The notes beneath the pieces were generated by a model, which worked only from the letters and a program-made list of their open reading frames with translations, had not been told where the DNA came from and did no database searches. A program made the translations under genes and the position numbers. 47,333 nt of DNA. It comes from a virus. The stretch lies in the IMG/VR virus record IMGVR_UViG_3300012926_000041, positions 1-47,333 of that record; one strand, 5' to 3'. Below, in pieces: positions 2,632 through 33,977 of the stretch. Within the stretch, counting starts at the first letter, position 1, and each line of letters starts with the position of its first letter.

Positions 2632-4440
2632 TCACCCCTCAAGCCTAGAAATCCGATTCTCTTTGACGATCTCCATCCGTTCCGTAAAGAACTGACGAAG
2701 AGAATCGTTGTGGGTTATTACAAAGCAAGATCCAAGCTGTTCTTTCTCCTTGTTCAGGAGAGTGATAATCCTTTCGCATCCAGCAGCATCCAAGCGCTCA
2801 AAGGCTTCGTCGAAGACCATCAAGTTAATTTTCCCCTTGCTCCGACTCCGAGCCAAGTCTTTCAAAGCAAGAGCAACGCAGAGATCAATTCGCTGACGCT
2901 CCCCGGCACTGTTCGCGCCGTAAATTTTCGAGCCATCCTGATTATTTGCCGTGATTGAAAACTTCTCTTTATACTCACCACTCTTGAGTTTCGTGACCGT
3001 GTTGAATCCAATATGGATTGATCCATCTGTGATGATCTCGGAATAGTAATTGGCCCGCTCGTTCAGGAATGGAACAATGCCATCTAATAGATAGGATCGG
3101 ATTCCGGCTGGTGAGAACGCATTCTGCCAGTATTTCCTTTTCTCAAGAAGGTACTTCCCTTTCTTGATATCTTCGTCCTGTTCTTGAATCTCTCGCTGAG
3201 TCTTTTTAATTTGATCCTGAACTTCTTTGATAGCCGAAGTGCTGATGGGAACGACTCTAGAAGAGTGCTCAATGGTTGAACGCATTGAGCCAATTCGTTC
3301 GATAGTTCTACTGACTTCTGCACGAAGTCTCCCAAGTTCAACCGAGTCAAAAGATTCTGAGAGATGAGCATCAAGAGACTTTGCAAGCGATCGAGACTTC
3401 CGATAGCGACGCTCAGCGCGACGAGCCTCAATTCGAAGGCTCTTTGACTTTCTACGGATAACTTTAAGTGTGCGCCCCTTGCTTGATCCAGATACTCTCT
3501 GACCACAGGTAGGACATTCAGCGTGCCCTCCAGAAGATATCTTATCCGCCTCTTGTCCAAGTTCTGATATTTCAGTCTGGTAGTCTTCGAAGAGATCTTT
3601 TGCCCTTGCCGCTTCTGCTTGAGCCTCTTTCTTCCGGTCTTGGAGTGCCCCATACTCTCTCTCCTTGGCTTCTTCGATTTCCAACTCGGCCTTGAGCTTT
3701 CTAAGCTCCTTCTTTTTTATCTTGATGCCTTTCTTCGTCTTCCGCTTCACCTCAAGGATCTCTTTGATCTCTGACTGTTCACGCTCCCTAAGTTCATTCC
3801 ATCGCTGACGGAGTTCCTTTATTTTCTCAAGAGAATGATGCCAGGTTGCCTTGTGCAAGTCTAGACTGATCTTCTGAGCAGAGATCTTCTGGCAGGTTAG
3901 CTTATAAGCTTTTTCATAGATCTCAAGATCAAGGAGACGCTCAAGAACAGACTTCTTCTCTTTATCGGTAAGCTGAGCAAACCTTAGAGTATCTTGCCCA
4001 AACAGTACGCTACTAGCAAAAGTAGTGAAATCACAGCCAACGAGCGCATCAATCTTTTCCTGGGTCGTGGTTGCTGTACTGGCAGATACATTTCTCCCAT
4101 CAACGCTAAGGTCAACGCTAGGGCTAGACCTAACTCCACGAGATCTAAGAAGTGTCCAAGTCTCATTGTCCCCTCTCTCCATCTTCAGCTTTACGGTACA
4201 GCCTTCTGATTTTACATCCTCCCGGATGACTCCATCAGATTCAACATCATCCCGAAGGATGCGCCCGTACAAACACCAGATCAGTGCATCCCAGATGGCT
4301 GATTTCCCCGAACCATTGCTATTTGCAGAAGGCTTGTCAGCATTCCGACCTGTGACCAGAATGATTCCTCGATCCTTCAGAGAGATTTTCATCTCTCCGA
4401 TGCTCATGAAGTTCTTGATGTAGAGGCTAGTGAATTTCAT
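2632..4440 (-). CDS. sbcC: SbcC/Rad50-like (T4 gp46-type) recombination nuclease ATPase subunit
   Basis: 602 aa. Walker A NGSGKS at residues 42-47, then long coiled-coil arms rich in Lys/Glu. A zinc hook CPTCG lies near residue 310, an ABC signature-like NSAGERQRIDL near 503-513, and a Walker B MVFDEAF near 540-546. This is the full SMC/Rad50 layout at the compact size typical of phage gp46. With the SbcD-like gene upstream it should form the Mre11/Rad50-type complex that processes DNA ends for strand invasion. Three small genes' lengths separate the two subunits, unlike the usual adjacent pair. Family assignment is secure. Confidence 0.92.
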   Translation of the reverse strand: MKFTSLYIKNFMSIGEMKISLKDRGIILVTGRNADKPSANSNGSGKSAIWDALIWCLYGRILRDDVESDGVIREDVKSEGCTVKLKMERGDNETWTLLRSRGVRSSPSVDLSVDGRNVSASTATTTQEKIDALVGCDFTTFASSVLFGQDTLRFAQLTDKEKKSVLERLLDLEIYEKAYKLTCQKISAQKISLDLHKATWHHSLEKIKELRQRWNELREREQSEIKEILEVKRKTKKGIKIKKKELRKLKAELEIEEAKEREYGALQDRKKEAQAEAARAKDLFEDYQTEISELGQEADKISSGGHAECPTCGQRVSGSSKGRTLKVIRRKSKSLRIEARRAERRYRKSRSLAKSLDAHLSESFDSVELGRLRAEVSRTIERIGSMRSTIEHSSRVVPISTSAIKEVQDQIKKTQREIQEQDEDIKKGKYLLEKRKYWQNAFSPAGIRSYLLDGIVPFLNERANYYSEIITDGSIHIGFNTVTKLKSGEYKEKFSITANNQDGSKIYGANSAGERQRIDLCVALALKDLARSRSKGKINLMVFDEAFERLDAAGCERIITLLNKEKEQLGSCFVITHNDSLRQFFTERMEIVKENRISRLEG

Positions 4441-7812: not shown

Positions 7813-9192
7813 CTACTTCTTCTTGCCTTTCATCTTCCGGAGACGATCAAGGGCATTTTTGACATCGCCCTTCGAGGACTTCTTGTCGTCCTCATCATCG
7901 TCATCCTCTTCGTCTTCGTCGTCCTCATCATCGTCGTCATCCTTGGACTTGGACTTCTTCTTGGACTTCTTTTCGTCTTCGTCGTCCTCATCCTCATCAT
8001 CGTCGTCGTCTTCTTCCTCCTCCTCCTCGTCGTCATCATCGTCCTTCTTGGACTTCTTCTTGGACTTCTTGGACTTTTTGTCGTCCTCGTCATCCTCGTC
8101 GTCATCCTCATCGTCGTCTTCATCCTCGTCGTCCTCATCGTCCTTTGACTTGGACTTCTTGGATTTGTCCTTCTTGGACTTCTTCTTCTTTACGCTGTCT
8201 TCGTCTTCGTCGTCTTCCTTGTCATCATCTCCGTCATCATCGTCATCATCGTCGTCATCATCATCGTCGTCTTTTTCATCATCGTCATCGTCGTCCTCAT
8301 CCTCATCGTCATCTTTGGACTTGGATTTCTTGGACTTCTTTGACTTTTTGCTCTTTGAAGAAGACTCATCATCGTCGTCATCCTTGTCATCGTCTTCCTC
8401 ATCATCCTCATCATCTTCTTCGTCTTCATCGTCGTCCTCGTCTTCATCATCATCCTCCTTCTTGGATTTCTTGGACTTGTCTTTCTTGGACTTTTTCTTC
8501 TTTTTGCTCTCTCCTTCGTCCTCGTCATCGTCCTCCTCATCATCGTCGTCATCACCGGAGTCTGAGGCACCGCCCTCGATCATCTCGATGATGTCCTCAG
8601 GCTCCGGGTACTCCACAAGCTCGTCAAGATCACTCGCCTTTTTCATGATTCTCTCCACTTTCAAAACCTGACTCGACTCTTTCGCCGTCCGTACTGCATA
8701 CTTGGTATCAATTCCTTCCCCAGTCTTCTCGATGATGATGTCGTAGCCCTTCTGGGGATCTGATATGTCGCCCCACTCATCGTCCGCAAAGTACGACAGG
8801 ATCTGTTCATAGATCTGAGGGCCTGAAGCAAACACCATCGGGACGTTGTCCCCGGCCTTCCGGTCAAGGATGTTGTAGAAATAACGCTTCCTTGCCTTGA
8901 ACTTCTTGGCCAGCTCGATGTCGCCCGGATCCTTTGACTTGAACAGGGTGTTGACCATGTCGCAAGCGGGACATTCCTTACCAACATCCTTTGGGCAAGC
9001 AATGGAGCTGTCCCCGATGTTGTAGTGGTAGGAAGCCTCTTTGCAGAACGAATCCTGATCCCCCTTCGGAGGAAGAATCCGGATACGATTCTTTTCGTGT
9101 TCAGGCTTCCACCAGTTGCGGCCACGGCTGTCCTTCTTCTTCTGGACATCCTGCATCCGCCGCTTCATCTTCTTTAGATTGACGCTACCCAT
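7813..9192 (-). CDS. T4 gp32-like single-stranded DNA-binding protein with giant acidic/lysine tail
   Basis: 459 aa. The N-terminal 200 residues carry the gp32-like core: a basic start, WWKPEHEKNRIRILPP, then a zinc site built from H56, C66, C74 and C77. From about residue 209 to 448 the chain is nearly only Asp/Glu runs alternating with Lys/Ser blocks such as KSKKSKK, ending in a short basic helix-like segment. Acidic C-tails are normal in SSBs for recruiting partners, but usually a few dozen residues. The alternating charge blocks are unusual and may drive condensate formation (inference). It neighbours the UvsY-like and RecA-like genes. Confidence 0.82.
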   Translation of the reverse strand: MGSVNLKKMKRRMQDVQKKKDSRGRNWWKPEHEKNRIRILPPKGDQDSFCKEASYHYNIGDSSIACPKDVGKECPACDMVNTLFKSKDPGDIELAKKFKARKRYFYNILDRKAGDNVPMVFASGPQIYEQILSYFADDEWGDISDPQKGYDIIIEKTGEGIDTKYAVRTAKESSQVLKVERIMKKASDLDELVEYPEPEDIIEMIEGGASDSGDDDDDEEDDDEDEGESKKKKKSKKDKSKKSKKEDDDEDEDDDEDEEDDEDDEEDDDKDDDDDESSSKSKKSKKSKKSKSKDDDEDEDDDDDDEKDDDDDDDDDDDDDGDDDKEDDEDEDSVKKKKSKKDKSKKSKSKDDEDDEDEDDDEDDDEDDEDDKKSKKSKKKSKKDDDDDEEEEEEDDDDDEDEDDEDEKKSKKKSKSKDDDDDEDDEDEEDDDDEDDKKSSKGDVKNALDRLRKMKGKKK

Positions 9193-9679: not shown

Positions 9680-9866
9680 TGCTGATCTTCCTCAGAGTTA
9701 GATTCTTAACGTACCCAAATGCCCGTTTGAACTCGTGACAGTTCCTACAATTCCTACAATGCCCAAGATACTTTTTCCGGTCTTCCTTCCTGGTTAGATG
9801 GCACTGACGAACACAAAGACATTCGCAGTGAACTGTTCTTGGCCATTGACGAAAGTAGATTGTCAC
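9672..9866 (-). CDS. Small cysteine-rich protein
   Basis: 64 aa from a GTG that overlaps the TGA of the polymerase/UDG gene; it ends inside the start of the UvsY-like gene. Cysteines are arranged as HCECLCVRQCH and HCRNCRNCHEF, which can hold one or two zinc ions. The rest is basic. No family recognised. The double overlap with its neighbours supports a real coding region despite its size. Confidence 0.5.
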   Translation of the reverse strand: MTIYFRQWPRTVHCECLCVRQCHLTRKEDRKKYLGHCRNCRNCHEFKRAFGYVKNLTLRKISNG

Positions 9867-11239
9867 AGGAAATTCTGAATCGTCTCAGAGAAGTTTTTCA
9901 GTGCTTTTCGGAGGATTGGGAGATTTGCGTTTCGCTCGTAGAGGACGCTGGCAGGGTGGATACAGTACGTCACCCAGGCTTCCGCCCGGTTATTCCACTC
10001 TGTCTTCCCGCTCCACTCCGTGATGCCCTTATTGACCTTCCTAAAGTAATATAAGGCGGTATTCCCGGATGCTAAGATGAATTTCGGTTTGAATCTTCTT
10101 ATGGCCTCAGTTGCCCACGGGCACTTGGAGACATAGGTGATGTTAGGCAATTTATTATTTGGAGGACGGCAAGAGACGGAATTTGCGACAATAACGTCAC
10201 TTCGACTGATGCCAACTCGCTCAAGCTCTTGAAAGAGTAGCTTACCTGACTTCCCCACAAATCCTCTACCCTCCAAGTCCTCTTGCTCTCCAGGTGCTTC
10301 ACCAAGCACCATGACATTGATCTTCCCGATACTTGGAGGAACTGGAGCCTTACAGCCTTGGTGCAACGGGCACAAGGTACAAGCTTGTACTTTTTTCTTC
10401 CACTTCGCTTCATTGAAGCCATCCAGATCCAAGCCTCCAACAATTGGTATCTTGATTTTCCCCGGCTTGCCCGCTGCGATCTTGGACATCAGCTGAAAGT
10501 CCTCGATCATGACATTTTGTTTACGTGCAAACGGAACGTTCACCTTGAAGATAGCAACTTCGCCTTTGATATTTTCAATCGTCTCTTTCTTCCGTTTGTA
10601 AAGATCAGGCTTATAGATTCCCATCGTGAAGGTGGAACCATCGTCCAAGTTGCCATAGATGCCCCCTAGGGCATCTGCAGTCCCGGCCTTCCCGGTTCCG
10701 GCTTGTTTTGCCCGTTCCTTATAACCAAACTTCACGGATGTTGCCTGAGCGACAATGTTCCGCAGCTCCATATCTTTACAGCTATGGTCAATGTCTTTGA
10801 TCTTTTGGATCGGGATGGCATTCATGATCAGCTTACAAAGTCTACGGTATTCTCCGAAGATGTCGCTGCTGATCTTGAAGTTTAGAGATTCCTGCTGATC
10901 CGTTAGAACATCGTCCAGCTTCATCTCCCAGTCTTGCTCGATGTTCTTTTCTTTTTCCTTAATGATCTCAAGGATCTTCTTTGTTCCGAGAAGAGGATAC
11001 AGTTCATCAAAATGCATCTTCCAGAGCTTTGTATTGACTTCTCCAAGCAGCAGGTCAAAGCAACCACTGTTGATCAGCATCCGGACAACTCGGACATTGA
11101 CTTTGCGCCGATCTACTCGCTCAATGAACTGCTCTAGGCTCTTGAACTCGCCGCCGCATTTTTCTCGAGCTTCAAGGATTGCTCGTTGAGCAGTTTCGCC
11201 GCACATCTTGACCTGAGACAGACCAGCTCTTAATTTCAA
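9863..11239 (-). CDS. DNA polymerase III alpha C-terminal half fused to family-4 uracil-DNA glycosylase
   Basis: 458 aa from a TTG with GAGG upstream; an in-frame TAA lies five codons before. Residues 1-110 continue DnaE where the upstream ORF stops: helix-hairpin-helix (LSQVKMCGETAQRAILEARE, then a VDRRKVNVRVV segment). Residues about 180-275 look like the DnaE OB fold. From about 280 on is a family-4/5 UDG: Fe-S cysteines in CTLC, SCRPP and KCPW, the GEAPGEQED motif near 312-320, GRGFVG, and the late IHPASVLY motif. So the polymerase's DNA-binding end and a uracil-removing enzyme are one chain. A sigma-like gene separates it from the catalytic half. Confidence 0.85.
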   Translation of the reverse strand: MKLRAGLSQVKMCGETAQRAILEAREKCGGEFKSLEQFIERVDRRKVNVRVVRMLINSGCFDLLLGEVNTKLWKMHFDELYPLLGTKKILEIIKEKEKNIEQDWEMKLDDVLTDQQESLNFKISSDIFGEYRRLCKLIMNAIPIQKIKDIDHSCKDMELRNIVAQATSVKFGYKERAKQAGTGKAGTADALGGIYGNLDDGSTFTMGIYKPDLYKRKKETIENIKGEVAIFKVNVPFARKQNVMIEDFQLMSKIAAGKPGKIKIPIVGGLDLDGFNEAKWKKKVQACTLCPLHQGCKAPVPPSIGKINVMVLGEAPGEQEDLEGRGFVGKSGKLLFQELERVGISRSDVIVANSVSCRPPNNKLPNITYVSKCPWATEAIRRFKPKFILASGNTALYYFRKVNKGITEWSGKTEWNNRAEAWVTYCIHPASVLYERNANLPILRKALKNFSETIQNFL

Positions 11240-11246
11240 TGGATCC

Positions 11247-11849
11247 TCACTTTAGAACATCAGCAGTTGCCCTGCTGTTCCCAAACATCTTTTCCCTTAT
11301 CGTTCCTCTTGCCCGGTAAGCAAGCGCCCTGATCCTATTGGCAGTCCCACCGTACAGTGCAGCAATCTCTTCGTAAGGCTTCCCAAACATATAGTGTTGA
11401 ACGAAGGCCATTCTCTGGCCATACGTTAGCGTTTCAAGAACTTCAGCAAATTTATCTTTGAACTCATCATAAATGATTTGTTCAAGCCCTTCTCTCCCGT
11501 TTGCCAAAGACTCAAGCCGCTTAAAGACATCTCGCTGGCTTGAAGTATTCCGCTTTGTATCTCTATAATGATGTCGAAAGACATTTAAGAGGATTGAATA
11601 CGCCCAAGTCCTAGGATTTCTTGGTTTGAATTGGTTGTGGTAATGGAACGCCCTTGAAATTGCCTCATCAGTTATCTCCGTCGCAATAGACTCATTGTGA
11701 GTCCATCTGTAGGCCGTCCTTATGTACTTTGACCGATACTGAAAGTAGTCGTGCTCACTCGGAGACAGTCCAGCCGTCTCCGCTACGGTTGATATCCGGC
11801 GGTACAGCTTTGATGCCCATTCGTTTAGCTTCTTTAAGCGCAATGTCAA
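11247..11849 (-). CDS. ECF-like sigma-70 factor inserted between the two polymerase halves
   Basis: The ORF shows both sigma parts: region 2 (YRSKYIRTAYRWTHNE, TDEAISRAFHYHN, then a WAYSILLNVFRHHYRD helix) and region 4 (LETLTYGQRMAFVQHYMFGK, then PYEEIAALYGGTANRI as the helix-turn-helix). This is the layout of a small ECF sigma factor. The start is unclear: TTG at 11849 has AAGGA upstream, an in-frame CTG at 11768 would avoid most overlap with the polymerase, and ATGs exist near 11873-11894. Its stop TGA is eight bases before the UDG-fusion start. It could direct host RNA polymerase to phage promoters. Confidence 0.72.
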   Translation of the reverse strand: MTLRLKKLNEWASKLYRRISTVAETAGLSPSEHDYFQYRSKYIRTAYRWTHNESIATEITDEAISRAFHYHNQFKPRNPRTWAYSILLNVFRHHYRDTKRNTSSQRDVFKRLESLANGREGLEQIIYDEFKDKFAEVLETLTYGQRMAFVQHYMFGKPYEEIAALYGGTANRIRALAYRARGTIREKMFGNSRATADVLK

Positions 11850-14283
11850 TCTTTCCTTCGGCAGACGCAGCATCATCTCCATCGACAGATCCATAATTTA
11901 AGAATGCCGTGAAAAACTCAAGCGGATACTTGATCTTCAGCCAGATGGTGAGGTAACTTAGGATTGCATATTCAACTGCGTGACTCCTGTTGAACGCATA
12001 CACTCCGAAAAACTTTAGATTCTCAAAGAATTCCTCTGCCTCGTCATACTTCATCGTTCCCTTCTTGACACATCCCTTTGCGTACATCTTTTTGTACTCG
12101 CGCCACTTGTCCGTTCCTTCAGACTTTGAGATCACCTTCCTGACTTGATCCGTCGTCTTCCAAGGGATTCCGGCCATGTTGAATAGGAGGAACATAATCT
12201 GTTCCTGATAGATGATCTGGCCACAGGTTGATTCGGTAATCCCTCGATGAATGTCATTGTAATACTTGACCTTCTTTCGACCCAGCTTGATCTCCTGGTA
12301 CTCCTGAGTGATCCCGGCCTTCAAGCATCCCGGTCGCCATAGGGCAGAAGCATCTGCGAGCGTTTCAAAGTCAGATACATTCAAGTCCTTACAGTATTTC
12401 TGTAGGCCCTTAGAGCCAATCTGAAAGCCGCACACCGTGTTCCCGGCTGCGATCTCCTTGTAGACTTCTTCCTTATGAAGATCAATCTTATAGTAGTCAA
12501 TGTCTCTGCCATGCTTCTCTCGGATCAGCCGCTTGGCCTCACTGAGGACCGAGAGTGTTGACAGGCCAAGCACGTCAAGCTTCATCAGCCCCATCTGTTC
12601 AAGGTCTTCCTTATCCCAGTTGACGGTGAGTGTCCCCCTTCGGTTCACAAGATGGCAGTTCCCAGAGTACCTCAGGTCATTTTTGCTAACGACAAATCCT
12701 GCTGCATGAATGCCACAGGTCTTGATCTGTCCTTCAATTTTCGAAGCGTACTTAATGACATGAGGATACTTCTTATAGAAGCGTTTTGCCTCTTCAAAGA
12801 TCTCGACCGTATCCATGATGCTGAAAGAGGCTCGAGCATCCATCTCAGGCCGGATCAGAATGCATTTTGACATCGCATCTGCTTCTTGCCTTGGAACCTC
12901 AAAGAGCCTCGAGACGTCCCGGACAGCTTGCTTCCCGCGCATCATTCCAAAGGTTGAGACATGAGCAACGTTCCATTCTCCGTACTTCTCTTTAAGGTAT
13001 TTCTCAATGAGATGCCGCTTGCGATCTTCAAAGTCAATGTCAATGTCGGGCAGGTCTACTCGCCCTTCAGAGATGAATCGTTCGAAGATGAGATTGTGCT
13101 CGATGGGATCAACCTCAGTAATATGCAAAAGATAAGACACAAGGCTGCCACCAACAGACCCGCGACCGTGTCCCACAAGGATGTCGTTAGATTTAGCCCA
13201 GTTGATAACATCAGCAACAAGAAGCATATAACGTACAAAGCCACCATTGACCATCGCTTCGAGTTCATACGCTGCCCTCTCTCGATACTTTCTTGACGTC
13301 AATCCTCTTTTTTCAAGTTCCTGCTGGCACTTCTCGATCAAGTAAACCGTTTCGTCAATTCCTTTTTCGAGGACTCGAGGGAGTTCAACTGGAATTTTGT
13401 TCAGCTTGAACTGACACTTCTCCCCGATCTCCATCGTGTTTAGGATTGATTCTCTGGCCACTTCCCGATCAATCCCCATTAGCTTCAGAGACTCATACAT
13501 CTCCTGAGCATCCCGCATGTAGTTCAGATGTGTATCAAATTTCCAACGCTTCGGATTGTTCCAGGTCATTCCTCGCTGACCAATTCCAAGAATGACATCG
13601 TGGACTTTGTGGTCTTTCTCGCACAAGAAATGAATGTCATTTGTTGCAATCAGCTTGATGCCAAGCTCCTCAGCCGCAACAAGAGCTTGAGCGTTGATAT
13701 TCGTCTGATGGTCAAGATCGTGCAGCGGCATGATCTCGGCATAAAGATCTTGCTTGAAGGCTTCGTAATATTTTCCAAGGAGATCAATCCCGTTCTCCGC
13801 ATTCCAGAAGGGACTCGAGGCACATCCCGTCTGAATGATGACATCTCCGGCCCAGTCGTGCTCTAAGGGATATTCCATTGGCAGGAAGGCTCTCGAGGAC
13901 CAGCCTTTCTTGGAAATGCCATTAATGTTTGCATATCCTAGACCAACTAGCAGCTTCTTCAGGCCGCGCTCATTCTTGGCATGAGCAATGAGGTGAAGAT
14001 TTTTTTGCTTTAAATTGAAATCATCCTTCTTATCCCAGTGCTCCAGCATGTAAAGTTCAACTCCAAAGATTGGCTTGATCTTGTATTCCTTTTTCTCCTT
14101 GTCATAGCAAGCATTATTGAACTTGACGATTCCGTCCATGCTCCCATGATTTGTACTCGCAATATACCGATGCCCCTTTTCAATTGCGCCCTTAACAAGC
14201 TCCTTTGTCTTGACGGCCCCATCCAGGAGACTGAACTCATCGTGGACGTGCAAATTACAGAAATCTTTGTTCTTCAGCGTCAT
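11755..14283 (-). CDS. dnaE: DNA polymerase III alpha (DnaE), N-terminal catalytic half
   Basis: 842 aa. PHP domain first (HVHDEF at 12-17, TNHGSM, HLIAHAKN, TNDIHF), then the PolIII palm and fingers. GRGSVGGS and the two metal aspartates in LPDIDIDF lie near 410, and the third aspartate in MKLDVLGLSTL near 566. The protein stops at WTVSE, right after the family motif PPDIN, exactly where the helix-hairpin-helix part should follow. That part is found in the ORF at 9863-11239. All catalytic residues are present, so the half is probably active when joined by its partner. PHP has Asn for the usual Asp in T-D-H. Confidence 0.93.
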   Translation of the reverse strand: MTLKNKDFCNLHVHDEFSLLDGAVKTKELVKGAIEKGHRYIASTNHGSMDGIVKFNNACYDKEKKEYKIKPIFGVELYMLEHWDKKDDFNLKQKNLHLIAHAKNERGLKKLLVGLGYANINGISKKGWSSRAFLPMEYPLEHDWAGDVIIQTGCASSPFWNAENGIDLLGKYYEAFKQDLYAEIMPLHDLDHQTNINAQALVAAEELGIKLIATNDIHFLCEKDHKVHDVILGIGQRGMTWNNPKRWKFDTHLNYMRDAQEMYESLKLMGIDREVARESILNTMEIGEKCQFKLNKIPVELPRVLEKGIDETVYLIEKCQQELEKRGLTSRKYRERAAYELEAMVNGGFVRYMLLVADVINWAKSNDILVGHGRGSVGGSLVSYLLHITEVDPIEHNLIFERFISEGRVDLPDIDIDFEDRKRHLIEKYLKEKYGEWNVAHVSTFGMMRGKQAVRDVSRLFEVPRQEADAMSKCILIRPEMDARASFSIMDTVEIFEEAKRFYKKYPHVIKYASKIEGQIKTCGIHAAGFVVSKNDLRYSGNCHLVNRRGTLTVNWDKEDLEQMGLMKLDVLGLSTLSVLSEAKRLIREKHGRDIDYYKIDLHKEEVYKEIAAGNTVCGFQIGSKGLQKYCKDLNVSDFETLADASALWRPGCLKAGITQEYQEIKLGRKKVKYYNDIHRGITESTCGQIIYQEQIMFLLFNMAGIPWKTTDQVRKVISKSEGTDKWREYKKMYAKGCVKKGTMKYDEAEEFFENLKFFGVYAFNRSHAVEYAILSYLTIWLKIKYPLEFFTAFLNYGSVDGDDAASAEGKIDIALKEAKRMGIKAVPPDINRSGDGWTVSE

Positions 14284-22435: not shown

Positions 22436-22542
22436 GTTGCATGATCTCCCGCCTCAGCCCAGATCCAACCGCCAAGCACACACGCTAGAATCAAGACTGA
22501 AAAGGCAATGTCCATATGGCTTAACAGGTGAGTAGAGGGCAT
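22432..22542 (-). CDS. Small single-pass membrane peptide (36 aa)
   Basis: From ATG 22542 (or ATG 22515, giving 27 aa) to a TGA overlapping the next start. The middle is a hydrophobic helix, MDIAFSVLILACVLGGWIW, with a short polar end. No strong ribosome site. It lies directly downstream of the structured RNA at 22560-22671, so its expression could be under that element. Function unknown; small size lowers certainty. Confidence 0.4.
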   Translation of the reverse strand: MPSTHLLSHMDIAFSVLILACVLGGWIWAEAGDHAT

Positions 22543-22559
22543 TTCATCATTGACTCTAG

Positions 22560-22671
22560 ATCTATCAAGAGGGTGCACCAGACTCATCTGTTTCGGAACG
22601 CAGACGAGTAATTTATGAGTCCTTTCACAGGGCGCACCCCCTTGATAGATGCCGTCCCTTTCAGGAACGGC
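22560..22671 (-). ncRNA. Structured RNA element with long helix and alternative inner pairings
   Basis: Outer helix: 22560-22579 with 22631-22650, 20 pairs; both plus-strand A/C mismatches become G-U pairs on the minus strand. Inside, 22582-22590 pairs with 22601-22609, or instead 22580-22587 with 22615-22622; the two cannot form together. Just 5', 22651-22658 pairs with 22664-22671 around a 5-nt loop, again with a G-U pair only on the minus strand. The wobble pattern argues for a functional minus-strand RNA. It is downstream of the 22694 gene and upstream of the small membrane ORF, so a cis-regulatory switch, processing site or small RNA is possible. Confidence 0.6.
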
Positions 22672-22693
22672 ACCTAGGACTACAGAGAGAGGG

Positions 22694-23206
22694 TTAGATC
22701 ATTTTCTTGTACTCGCCCTCACCCGCGTACACAATGAGGCCGAGTTTGGTGAAGATCCGGAGCATGATCGGGATCTTTGCATCTGGATTGAACTTGATGT
22801 GCGTTCCGGCCTTCTTTGCCTGCTTACAGAAAACAGTCGTCTTTGATGCAAGCTCAGTGGCCGTTAACTTCTTTCCGCATTCCTCGCGCAGAACCGAATA
22901 AACGGCCCAGCCAGCAGATCCAACACGAAGGCTGCAGTTCTCCTTGTCCTTGAGATAACGCTTCGAAAGAGGACGTGCCTTCTCAGCAGTCTCCTCTTTC
23001 TTTTCCTTGGGCTGCTTCACAGCCTTCTTCTCTTTCGTTTTCGTCGCCATTGTTTCTTCCTTGACTGCGTTTCGTTTTCCAGCACGCCGACAGCGTCTCG
23101 CAACGAGACAGACCTGACATTCGGGTGCCGTTTTCAGGTAATACTTGCCAAAGCAATCGCCTTCAAACTCCGCTTTTGCCTTGGTCGGTAGAGGAGGGTT
23201 TGTCAT
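22694..23206 (-). CDS. Cysteine-rich phage protein with lysine-rich linker
   Basis: 170 aa, ATG preceded by GAGGAGGACG. N-terminal motif CFGKYYLKTAPECQVCLVAR with a further RRC gives four cysteines, a pattern I have seen in small phage zinc proteins. A Lys/Glu-rich linker (residues 55-80) leads to an 80-residue C-terminal domain that looks like a winged helix (VYSVLREECGKKLTATELAS and MLRIFTKLGLIVYAG). Possible DNA-binding regulator; unproven. Confidence 0.55.
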   Translation of the reverse strand: MTNPPLPTKAKAEFEGDCFGKYYLKTAPECQVCLVARRCRRAGKRNAVKEETMATKTKEKKAVKQPKEKKEETAEKARPLSKRYLKDKENCSLRVGSAGWAVYSVLREECGKKLTATELASKTTVFCKQAKKAGTHIKFNPDAKIPIMLRIFTKLGLIVYAGEGEYKKMI

Positions 23207-31315: not shown

Positions 31316-31705
31316 CTATGAATCTCCGTCTTTCCGGCAATGCATCCCGTCCAGGTCGCTGAGGTCAATCTCGCGCAGCTTCCCCTTCTTGAACTTGGAG
31401 CCCTTCGGAGCCCGCTTGAGTTGGCTCCCCATGATGCGCCAGTTCCCGAACGTCCCGAAGTCCACCAGAACGCGCATGCGCGCAATCCTCAGGACCTTCC
31501 CAACGACCCCTTCTGGCATGCGCCGACCGCAGCGCGGAGACAAAACCAAATCCCCATGCCGGAAATCCATCGCTGCCCGAGAAGCGATGTTTGCCGATTC
31601 TTGCTTGAATAGACCCCAGAGCGTTCTGGCCGCGTTCTCCAGTTCCTCTAGGCCGTACCGTTTCTTGGCAACCAGATCTTCAACCTTTTCAGTGAGAGTT
31701 TTCAT
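31316..31705 (-). CDS. Hypothetical protein with SH3-like stretch
   Basis: 129 aa from the ATG at 31705, with GATTGGAGGATAG before it. An N-terminal helix (60 residues) is followed by FRHGDLVLSPRCGRRMPEGV and IARMRVLVDFGTFGNWRIM, which look like a small KOW/SH3-type barrel, and a basic end. Possibly nucleic-acid binding. Name not known. Confidence 0.5.
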   Translation of the reverse strand: MKTLTEKVEDLVAKKRYGLEELENAARTLWGLFKQESANIASRAAMDFRHGDLVLSPRCGRRMPEGVVGKVLRIARMRVLVDFGTFGNWRIMGSQLKRAPKGSKFKKGKLREIDLSDLDGMHCRKDGDS

Positions 31706-31722
31706 CCTATCCTCCAATCATC

Positions 31723-31794
31723 CTAGAAAAAGAAAACCTGCTCAATGTCACAGTCCTGACTCAAGAGGGTCGCAATGATCTCCAGGTCGCTCAT
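31723..31794 (-). CDS. Very small ORF (23 aa)
   Basis: ATG at 31794 with AAGGAACATTTT upstream; encodes MSDLEIIATLLSQDCDIEQV and ends FFF. It follows a UUCG-capped hairpin near 31814-31825 (GGCC TTCG GGCC on the minus strand) and leads into the shared leader of the next gene. May be a leader peptide or a tiny protein. Confidence 0.35.
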   Translation of the reverse strand: MSDLEIIATLLSQDCDIEQVFFF

Positions 31795-31832
31795 AAAATG
31801 TTCCTTTCTTGGCCCGAAGGCCTGTTAGAAAA

Positions 31833-32147
31833 CTATCGACCAGAAACGAAACAATGACTGCCCTTATGACCCTTGACTTGGTTACAGGTTACCATCCGGC
31901 CAGAACCGCCATGGCTTGGATACTTCTTTTTGCAAATCCCGCCAAGCTTTGCCAGACGCTTCAGTATTGCTTCCGACCGCTGATCAAATTCGCGCCGAGC
32001 CTGTTCACGTTCCTTCAAAATCAAACGGTAAGCCAGTCTCAGATTTGAAAGCTCGTGAGTTTTTGATTGATGAGTCTGATGGAGCCCCTTATGACCAACT
32101 TCCTTGACGCAGCGCATGTTCATGAACGTTGCTTTGCATTTCGCCAT
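31833..32147 (-). CDS. Protein with two C-x-H-x-G-x-H-type motifs around a coiled coil
   Basis: 104 aa from ATG 32147, after TTTGGAGGATTCT. Motif one: MRCVKEVGHKGLHQTH; motif two: VTCNQVKGHKGSHC. Between them is a charged helix (AYRLILKEREQARREFDQR). The repeated C...GHKG-x-H likely binds metal. This gene is the first after the large structured RNA. Function unknown; related motif in the 21523-21729 protein. Confidence 0.55.
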   Translation of the reverse strand: MAKCKATFMNMRCVKEVGHKGLHQTHQSKTHELSNLRLAYRLILKEREQARREFDQRSEAILKRLAKLGGICKKKYPSHGGSGRMVTCNQVKGHKGSHCFVSGR

Positions 32148-32179
32148 AGAATCCTCCAAACAGGAATCCAAATTAGATT

Positions 32180-32925
32180 CCCAAGGCGACCTAGGTTTGC
32201 AGTCCCTAGGCCGATGTTGGAAATCTTTCTTGTCGTTGCCTCACAGCATCTGAAGAGACAAGGACCTTCAGAGGTGAGCCACGGGAACCTTGCGGACCCG
32301 CAATTAGATTCTTTCGGATAGCTCCGTTAGACCGTTGCGCCGTTCGAAGTCCACCAGACCGTTCTAGGGTCCAGCATCGTTCCTAGCCCGTTCCTTACTT
32401 GCGCGCCAGGTCCGCATTTTCGCTTCACAGCGTCATGCGGCAGCAGCCTCAACTCCCGGTCCCATTTAAGGGCATCCGTCTTTCGCAAGATCGGACATCG
32501 GGGAGCAGTAGCTTCAGGAAGGTAGCCGACTTCAGGCATTCAACTTAGTTCAGGTCGGAGACGTTTTCCGCGTATCGCGCAGTCTCTACCCTTCCATCGA
32601 CCGGGCGGTCATGGGTCCGGTTTTGGGGTCCGGACTTTCGGAGAAGGGTTTCTACTTCGACCCCTAGTGAAGGAGCGGCCGTTGAAGGCTTTCCTTTTTC
32701 TAGGCCCAGTTCTCACAGAACACGATTTTCGAATCTTCCCGAAGCTTAGACTTCGGTTGCCCCGACCGACAGGTCAGGGAAGTCTTACAGGGATCCCGCA
32801 GGACACTTCACCGCCGTTAGGACGGCCAACCCCTTTATCGTCTCGATTCGAAAGAGCGTTTACTACGTACTAAGTATCGTCTAGGAATGGCTCTCTGGCG
32901 AATTAAATCCAAGTCCGGACTCCTT
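32180..32925 (-). ncRNA. Candidate large structured (ornate) noncoding RNA, about 745 nt
   Basis: No credible ORF on either strand, yet dense local helices. Examples: 32187-32195/32205-32213 (9 bp); 32249-32255/32266-32272 (7 bp); 32412-32417 with 32435-32440 stacked on 32421-32424/32429-32432; 32475-32482/32487-32495; 32594-32602/32607-32614; 32615-32620/32630-32635; 32739-32744/32751-32756; 32760-32767/32772-32779; 32813-32817/32822-32826. On the minus strand two are closed by GNRA tetraloops (GUGA, GCGA), and several plus-strand A-C mismatches become G-U pairs, so the RNA is most likely minus-strand. A TATAAT lies just upstream at 32928-32933. Size and phage setting recall GOLLD/ROOL-like giant RNAs, but I could not match it to either. 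Confidence 0.62.
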
Positions 32926-32927
32926 CT

Positions 32928-32933
32928 ATTATA
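32928..32933 (-). promoter_or_regulatory. TATAAT -10-like element before the large RNA
   Basis: A perfect TATAAT on the minus strand, 32933 to 32928, with predicted start near 32921. No good -35 hexamer is seen 17 nt upstream, so this may be an activator- or sigma-dependent promoter or a chance match. It sits between the primase stop and the structured RNA. Confidence 0.35.
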
Positions 32934-32946
32934 CAGCTATCCGGAC

Positions 32947-32963
32947 CCCCTACGAGCTAGGGG
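32947..32963 (-). terminator. Short hairpin directly after the primase stop
   Basis: CCCCTA (32947-32952) pairs with TAGGGG (32958-32963), 5-nt loop; it starts at the base next to the primase stop. No T-run on the minus strand. Could separate the primase transcript from the RNA below it. Confidence 0.35.
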
Positions 32964-33977
32964 CTATTTGAAGGCTTTCTTGCCCATCCAATTCGATGGT
33001 TCTTTTTGAGTGCGTCCCATCAAACTTTTTTTCGATTTGAGCAATTTTTCTAACAGCTCCTCTGGCGTTAAATCATCCGGATCACCAGATTCCAGTTCTG
33101 TAATATAAACGGGAGCCTCATACCACGTCGAAAGTTCTGCGGCAGTTGACCTTGCGTCCTTCACGGCATCACTATCAAACATGACCCAGAGTGCAGACGG
33201 AGAAAAATATTCCAGGTACATGATCTGGATCCGACTGATCTTGTGACCAAGCAACGCAATCGCTTTGTGAGGCATTTCTAAAAGCCTGAAGACCTTGTCC
33301 AGATAGATCGCATCGAACGGCCCTTCAACGATCACGATGGGGTCATTTTCTTTGACCCATTGGACACCATACAACGCATCCGTCTTGGAGTACGTAGTCC
33401 CATCATCAAACGGATTCTTTGTCTTGGGATCAAAGTTACCAATGAACCGTCTCGCTTGGAACGTGACATTCTTGTGATGCTCGTCTTGGACTGGAAAGAT
33501 CAAGTGTTGAAGATAATCTCCAGACTCTGCGTATCCAATGTTCCAGCGTTTCACGTCCATATAGTCCAAGCCACGTCGTTCAAGAAGCTTGTAGGCCATC
33601 TGACAGGCATTGCTTTTATTTTTCTTATAGATCTCCTTGAACTCTGGAGGGAATGGCATCATCTCAAGTCTTGGTAGTAGTTTGTCCTTACCGTTCCCGA
33701 ATCGTTGATTGGACGAAGCCTTCAAGACTTTATTCCTCAAGTCCTCTGTGCTCATGTTGAGCTGACCTGGCTTGATGTTCAGCTCACGGAATAATCTGAA
33801 GACGTTCCCGGACTCTTCGCAACGGAAGCAATGCCAGCCGGTTCCCTTGACCCAGCATTTGAATTTCTCGTTGCCACAGAACGGACAGTTGATCGAAACG
33901 TCGCCAGTTGAACGTTCCCGGACATCAACGCCATTGCTTTGAAAGAGACTCAGGAGCTGTTCTTTAGTAAAGTTCAT
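32964..33977 (-). CDS. DnaG-type DNA primase
   Basis: 337 aa. An N-terminal zinc finger (C31, C34, then HCFRC at 49-53), a linker, then the primase core and TOPRIM domain with IVIVEGPFDAIYL (E218, D222) and VMFDSDAVKDA (D268, D270). Shorter than host DnaG (about 600 aa) because the C-terminal helicase-binding domain is reduced or absent. Works with the DnaB-like helicase two genes upstream. Start overlaps the previous gene's stop by four bases. Confidence 0.88.
   Translation of the reverse strand: MNFTKEQLLSLFQSNGVDVRERSTGDVSINCPFCGNEKFKCWVKGTGWHCFRCEESGNVFRLFRELNIKPGQLNMSTEDLRNKVLKASSNQRFGNGKDKLLPRLEMMPFPPEFKEIYKKNKSNACQMAYKLLERRGLDYMDVKRWNIGYAESGDYLQHLIFPVQDEHHKNVTFQARRFIGNFDPKTKNPFDDGTTYSKTDALYGVQWVKENDPIVIVEGPFDAIYLDKVFRLLEMPHKAIALLGHKISRIQIMYLEYFSPSALWVMFDSDAVKDARSTAAELSTWYEAPVYITELESGDPDDLTPEELLEKLLKSKKSLMGRTQKEPSNWMGKKAFK

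Follow-up and report, generated by a model that had tools for sequence, protein, structure and literature searches.

A candidate minus-strand noncoding RNA in a long ORF-free gap of a phage replication operon

GOLLD and ROOL are phage and prophage RNAs that often lie near tRNA islands, and the 3' region of GOLLD is universally conserved (PMC12286853). OLE is found in many extremophilic Gram-positive bacteria (PMC11332333). The window analysed here, a 47,333-base IMG/VR virus record of a virus of bacteria (phage) with its recognisable genes on the minus strand, contains an ORF-free gap of 792 nt (32172-32963, minus strand, from the primase gene to the next small gene), in which a sequence-only reading had seen a candidate giant structured phage RNA roughly 745 nt long, possibly a diverged member of one of these classes. 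The comparison with the Rfam GOLLD, ROOL and OLE models by Infernal, which that reading had proposed, gave no match: in a cmscan of the whole window no family reaches its gathering score, and at E <= 10 the region 31700-33100 yields chance matches only, none of them to GOLLD, ROOL or OLE. The search itself works, since a related phage gave tRNAs and a tmRNA with the same tool, and the gap, matching none of the Rfam covariance models, is thus not a recognisable GOLLD, ROOL or OLE. A diverged member of these families is also unsupported, given the lack of an Rfam match at E <= 10, the absence of tRNA genes from the window (0 with ARAGORN) and the different setting.

This setting is a replication operon in which the gene order is helicase, DnaB (Pfam DnaB_C, 1.4e-19), primase, gap and CobS/CobT-like genes, the latter encoding a CobS-like AAA ATPase and a CobT-like VWA protein on the minus strand; genes for PolIII-alpha and a RecA-like protein, assigned by similarity, also lie on the minus strand of the window. 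The gap is flanked by two genes:

32964-33977, minus strand: DNA primase gene (PHROG 47, E 3.2e-45), upstream of the gap
31833-32171, minus strand: small gene without a family match, downstream of the gap

Judged from the sequence, the downstream gene probably begins with the ATG near 32147 that follows a GGAGG, in which case the gap would reach about 32148 and measure about 816 nt. At 792 nt it is the longest noncoding gap of the window, the next longest being 378 and 258 nt, and it makes up about a quarter of the roughly 3.2 kb (about 7% of the window) that is noncoding, a density that is approximate because the working gene list was hand-picked and includes some doubtful small ORFs.

Two other genes of the window have unusual features. 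The 459-aa protein encoded at 7813-9192 (minus strand) has a C-terminal half made almost entirely of Asp/Glu runs alternating with Lys/Ser runs, a tail also present in close relatives, and its N-terminal part resembles, by eye only, a phage single-stranded-DNA-binding protein. PolIII-alpha appears to be split (9863-14283, minus strand), with its main part at 11755-14283 and, at 9863-11239, what by eye seems to be a PolIII-like piece fused to a uracil-DNA-glycosylase-like domain; there are matches in close and distant relatives.

That the stretch is ORF-free was correctly seen by the sequence-only reading and holds over 32172-32963, where we find no credible ORF. Codon log-odds are about 0 in all six frames, indicating no coding signal (nine small control genes score +0.07 to +0.34 in their reading frame), the three minus-strand frames contain 17, 7 and 17 stop codons, and the longest stop-to-stop frame has the length that a shuffled sequence gives. 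When the gap is translated in six frames, with X for each stop, PHROGs yields no family and Pfam a single, sub-threshold match on the plus strand, to an Xre-like HTH (E 9e-4, below the curated cut-off), which we rejected as a sign of a decayed gene. As expected of a noncoding RNA, the gap thus shows no protein-coding signal. At its 5' end (32835-32912, minus strand) the gap has a possible 25-codon ORF, MDLIRQRAIPRRYLVRSKRSFESRR, with a TTG start 7 nt behind AAGGAG, which may be a chance occurrence.

The predicted fold of the gap gives a moderate minus-strand signal that is not decisive. The whole gap has a z of -3.16 on the minus strand (20 shuffles) and of about -1.4 on the plus strand, and the 745-nt stretch delimited by the sequence-only reading one of -2.65 on the minus strand (80 shuffles, 1 of 80 as good). 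Local 150-nt windows average only -1.16 in the gap vs -0.33 elsewhere. When the gap was cut into halves, independently of the predicted fold, the 3' half proved strand-biased, and the 5' half, with a z of -1.81 on the minus strand vs -2.09 on the plus strand, shows no minus-strand bias. Fold energy alone is no proof, because some coding windows reach similar values: z falls below -3.2 in 2 of 39 coding controls of 396 nt, and a 735-nt coding window of low complexity has a z of -5.0. The predicted features of the gap are as follows, the z values of the three subdomains being biased because these were selected from the predicted fold:

32172-32567, minus strand: 3' half with strand-biased fold stability (z -3.36, 0 of 200 shuffles as good; plus strand -0.92)
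32175-32280, minus strand: 3' subdomain (z -4.17, 0 of 200)
32281-32386, minus strand: irregular rod-like hairpin subdomain (z -2.72)
32388-32524, minus strand: subdomain with two GNRA-capped hairpins, GUGA at 32425-32428 and GCGA at 32483-32486 (z -2.69)
32913-32946, minus strand: 8-bp hairpin GUCCGGAU/GUCCGGAC, whose loop holds a TATAAT at 32933-32928

The 3' subdomain is predicted to form a long terminal hairpin, in which 32226-32217 pairs with 32184-32175 and then 32213-32205 with 32195-32187, and a second hairpin (32272-32249) whose CUUGUC loop could form a pseudoknot with GACAAG at 32234-32229; since the plus strand scores equally high in the same test, we do not count this as minus-strand evidence. 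The description of the region as helix-rich did not survive comparison with shuffled sequences, the gap containing 18 perfect hairpins with 6 bp or more vs 13.5 +/- 4.6 (P = 0.19; the genome-window mean is 16.0). The GNRA loops fared slightly better: three minus-strand hairpins of at least 4 bp carry one vs 0.73 expected (P = 0.04) and none does on the plus strand. Both loops named by the sequence-only reading are indeed present on the minus strand only, together with a third that it missed (GUGA, 32241-32244). The upstream TATAAT is also there on the minus strand, in a hairpin loop, but no sigma-70-like promoter is called at this site.

We consider a minus-strand noncoding RNA the most likely reading of the gap, and give a probability of roughly 0.5 to an orphan RNA of this kind encoded there as part of the replication operon. 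It is favoured because (i) a long ORF-free gap lies in a gene-dense, one-strand operon, (ii) the fold of its 3' half is strand-biased and (iii) the GNRA loops occur on one strand. Against it stand the chance-level hairpin count, the low average of the local 150-nt windows, the coding windows that reach the same z, the selection bias in the subdomain values, the lack of a homologue, the small genes at the syntenic place in a related phage, the lack of a promoter and a terminator-like site no commoner than chance predicts. The giant size that had been proposed is not established, the signal being moderate and concentrated in about 400 nt, with no homologue found; the structured part probably covers about 350-400 nt, not the full 745 nt. 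The operon layout, with no promoter called at the TATAAT, suggests that transcription reading through from the primase gene would produce the RNA, and its 3' end would be bounded by the strong hairpin at 32175-32226. During infection it might then persist as a stable folded molecule acting in trans, possibly as a scaffold that binds proteins or self-assembles.

The main rival is that the gap is DNA without RNA function, either a worn-down lost gene or a recently acquired recombination piece, that folds slightly above average by chance. The PolIII-alpha clade pattern found two close relatives, G037 (82%) and G038 (83%), both of which stop at the equivalent of 21-23 kb of the window and do not cover the gap; distant relatives found through PolIII-alpha share about 40% identity, and the DnaB and helicase patterns found no close relative. 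G043, a more distantly related phage of 165.8 kb, keeps the order helicase, DnaB, primase, CobS, CobT and has protein-coding small genes directly after primase, at the place equivalent to the gap. No homologue of the gap was found among INPHARED phages (blastn), in PLSDB plasmids (a 34-nt stretch within catalase genes being the sole match), in IMG/VR single-protein scans with the primase and CobS proteins, in 35 PolIII-alpha-relative records searched with the gap DNA or in GTDB genomes searched with the clade pattern, and 16-mers of the gap RNA in IMG/VR and GTDB gave loci with short chance matches only. Three covariance models run on the relatives, two of them also on 50 whole records, found no homologue either, each being built from one sequence and hence a weak detector. 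A 22-nt match in G032 was taken as chance, and the best 16-mer locus (L194) and an nhmmer match (L130) were rejected because they fall inside coding ORFs, the former of 1310 aa. The lack of a homologue in the phage, plasmid, IMG/VR and GTDB collections, the absence of the gap from the syntenic place in G043, the hairpin count at chance and a longest frame like that of shuffled sequence all speak for functionless DNA. However, 800 bases of idle DNA are seldom retained in a phage genome, a strand-biased fold as in the 3' half is unexpected for worn-down DNA, and the minus strand retains no trace of a protein family; we therefore regard this explanation as possible but unlikely.

Other long gaps occur among the relatives. 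Those of four loci (L112, L116, L119 and L123) were rejected because, when read through, they looked like series of small genes, L116 containing a tRNA-like sequence too, and those of G043 (locus L154) because they contain tRNAs and a tmRNA; this last phage (IMGVR_UViG_3300027917_000019) carries 37 tRNA genes and the tmRNA on one 20-kb stretch. In G042 (IMGVR_UViG_3300031251_000025), more than 2 kb of odd word-rich DNA (L143:6027-8400) holds many copies of CCGTCCGATT, CTAGGCCC and TCGAA and has ORF-free gaps of 663 and 817 nt, with no tRNA and no Rfam match. The 22-nt word CTGTTTAAAGCACTGCAAATAG occurs in intergenic DNA of G037 (L130, about 3319-3340) and G038 (L132, about 1935-1970) in opposite orientations, and might represent a small element that is invertible or mobile.

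A second element of the window, at 22530-22693 on the minus strand, lies directly behind the stop of the gene 22694-23206 and has a z of -6.01 (0 of 200 shuffles as good). Its architecture, a hairpin and, after it, a helix of at least 15 bp that encloses further helices, is similar in the G037 counterpart (L129:55-225, plus strand; z -6.73), the sequence of which is quite different, and RNAalifold on the two sequences (n=2) yields 23 pairs, 7 of them with two-sided compensatory changes. Rfam gave no match to this element beyond one chance snoRNA score, and INPHARED holds no DNA similar to it. Two sequences make a small basis, but it is better supported as an RNA element than the 792-nt gap, and it merits more attention. 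Its compensatory changes also indicate that structured RNA is not foreign to this phage lineage.

As this element likewise lies between two genes of an operon, it lends weight to another reading of the gap, in which the 3' part is a cis-acting structured leader or an RNA-processing site in the operon mRNA that terminates, stabilises or gates translation of the next genes. Such a role stands close behind a trans-acting RNA because the most strongly structured part, 32175-32280, stops just short of the next ribosome-binding site, about 20-30 nt upstream of the GGAGG and ATG. Yet a leader of 792 nt would be long, folding better than that of shuffles extends to the middle subdomains (32281-32524), and the terminator signal, a weak site at 32195-32180, has the frequency expected by chance, all of which makes this explanation rather doubtful. 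Most improbable is a DNA element, that is, a replication origin or protein-binding region by the primase/helicase genes: the gap adjoins primase and DnaB and contains a 13-nt inverted repeat with arms 273 nt apart, but it lacks repeated binding sites (there is a single direct repeat, of 10 nt), is not AT-rich (GC about 0.54) and shows no turn in cumulative GC skew.

Returning to the minus-strand noncoding RNA, it is tempting to speculate that it represents a new large phage RNA class of 400-800 nt, located between primase and CobS/CobT-like genes, unrelated to GOLLD, ROOL and OLE and forming a defined particle that acts in trans during infection. We regard this extension as unlikely; if true, a further unrelated RNA class tied to a replication operon would help to show whether the role of such RNAs lies in replication, translation or host takeover. 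To our knowledge, only a small number of large structured RNAs are known from phages, and what they do is still unsettled. As it stands, the gap is a single orphan sequence, and its value is that of a marker.

Among known systems, OLE resembles the putative RNA in being a large structured bacterial noncoding RNA. The gap differs from it in having no Rfam match and in lying in a phage, beside primase and CobS-like genes, whereas OLE is an RNA of Gram-positive extremophiles (PMC11332333). ROOL comes nearer as a large noncoding phage and prophage RNA with a complex predicted structure (PMC12286853), but the gap has neither an Rfam match nor a tRNA island, and ROOL rests on covariation whereas the gap is a single sequence. 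The gap also differs from GOLLD in matching no Rfam model, and the window has no tRNA genes, neighbours that are common, though not universal, for GOLLD. Like GOLLD, which often exceeds 800 nt, the gap is phage-borne, noncoding and similar in length, and its better-defined predicted fold lies in the 3' region, as does the conserved part of GOLLD (PMC12286853).
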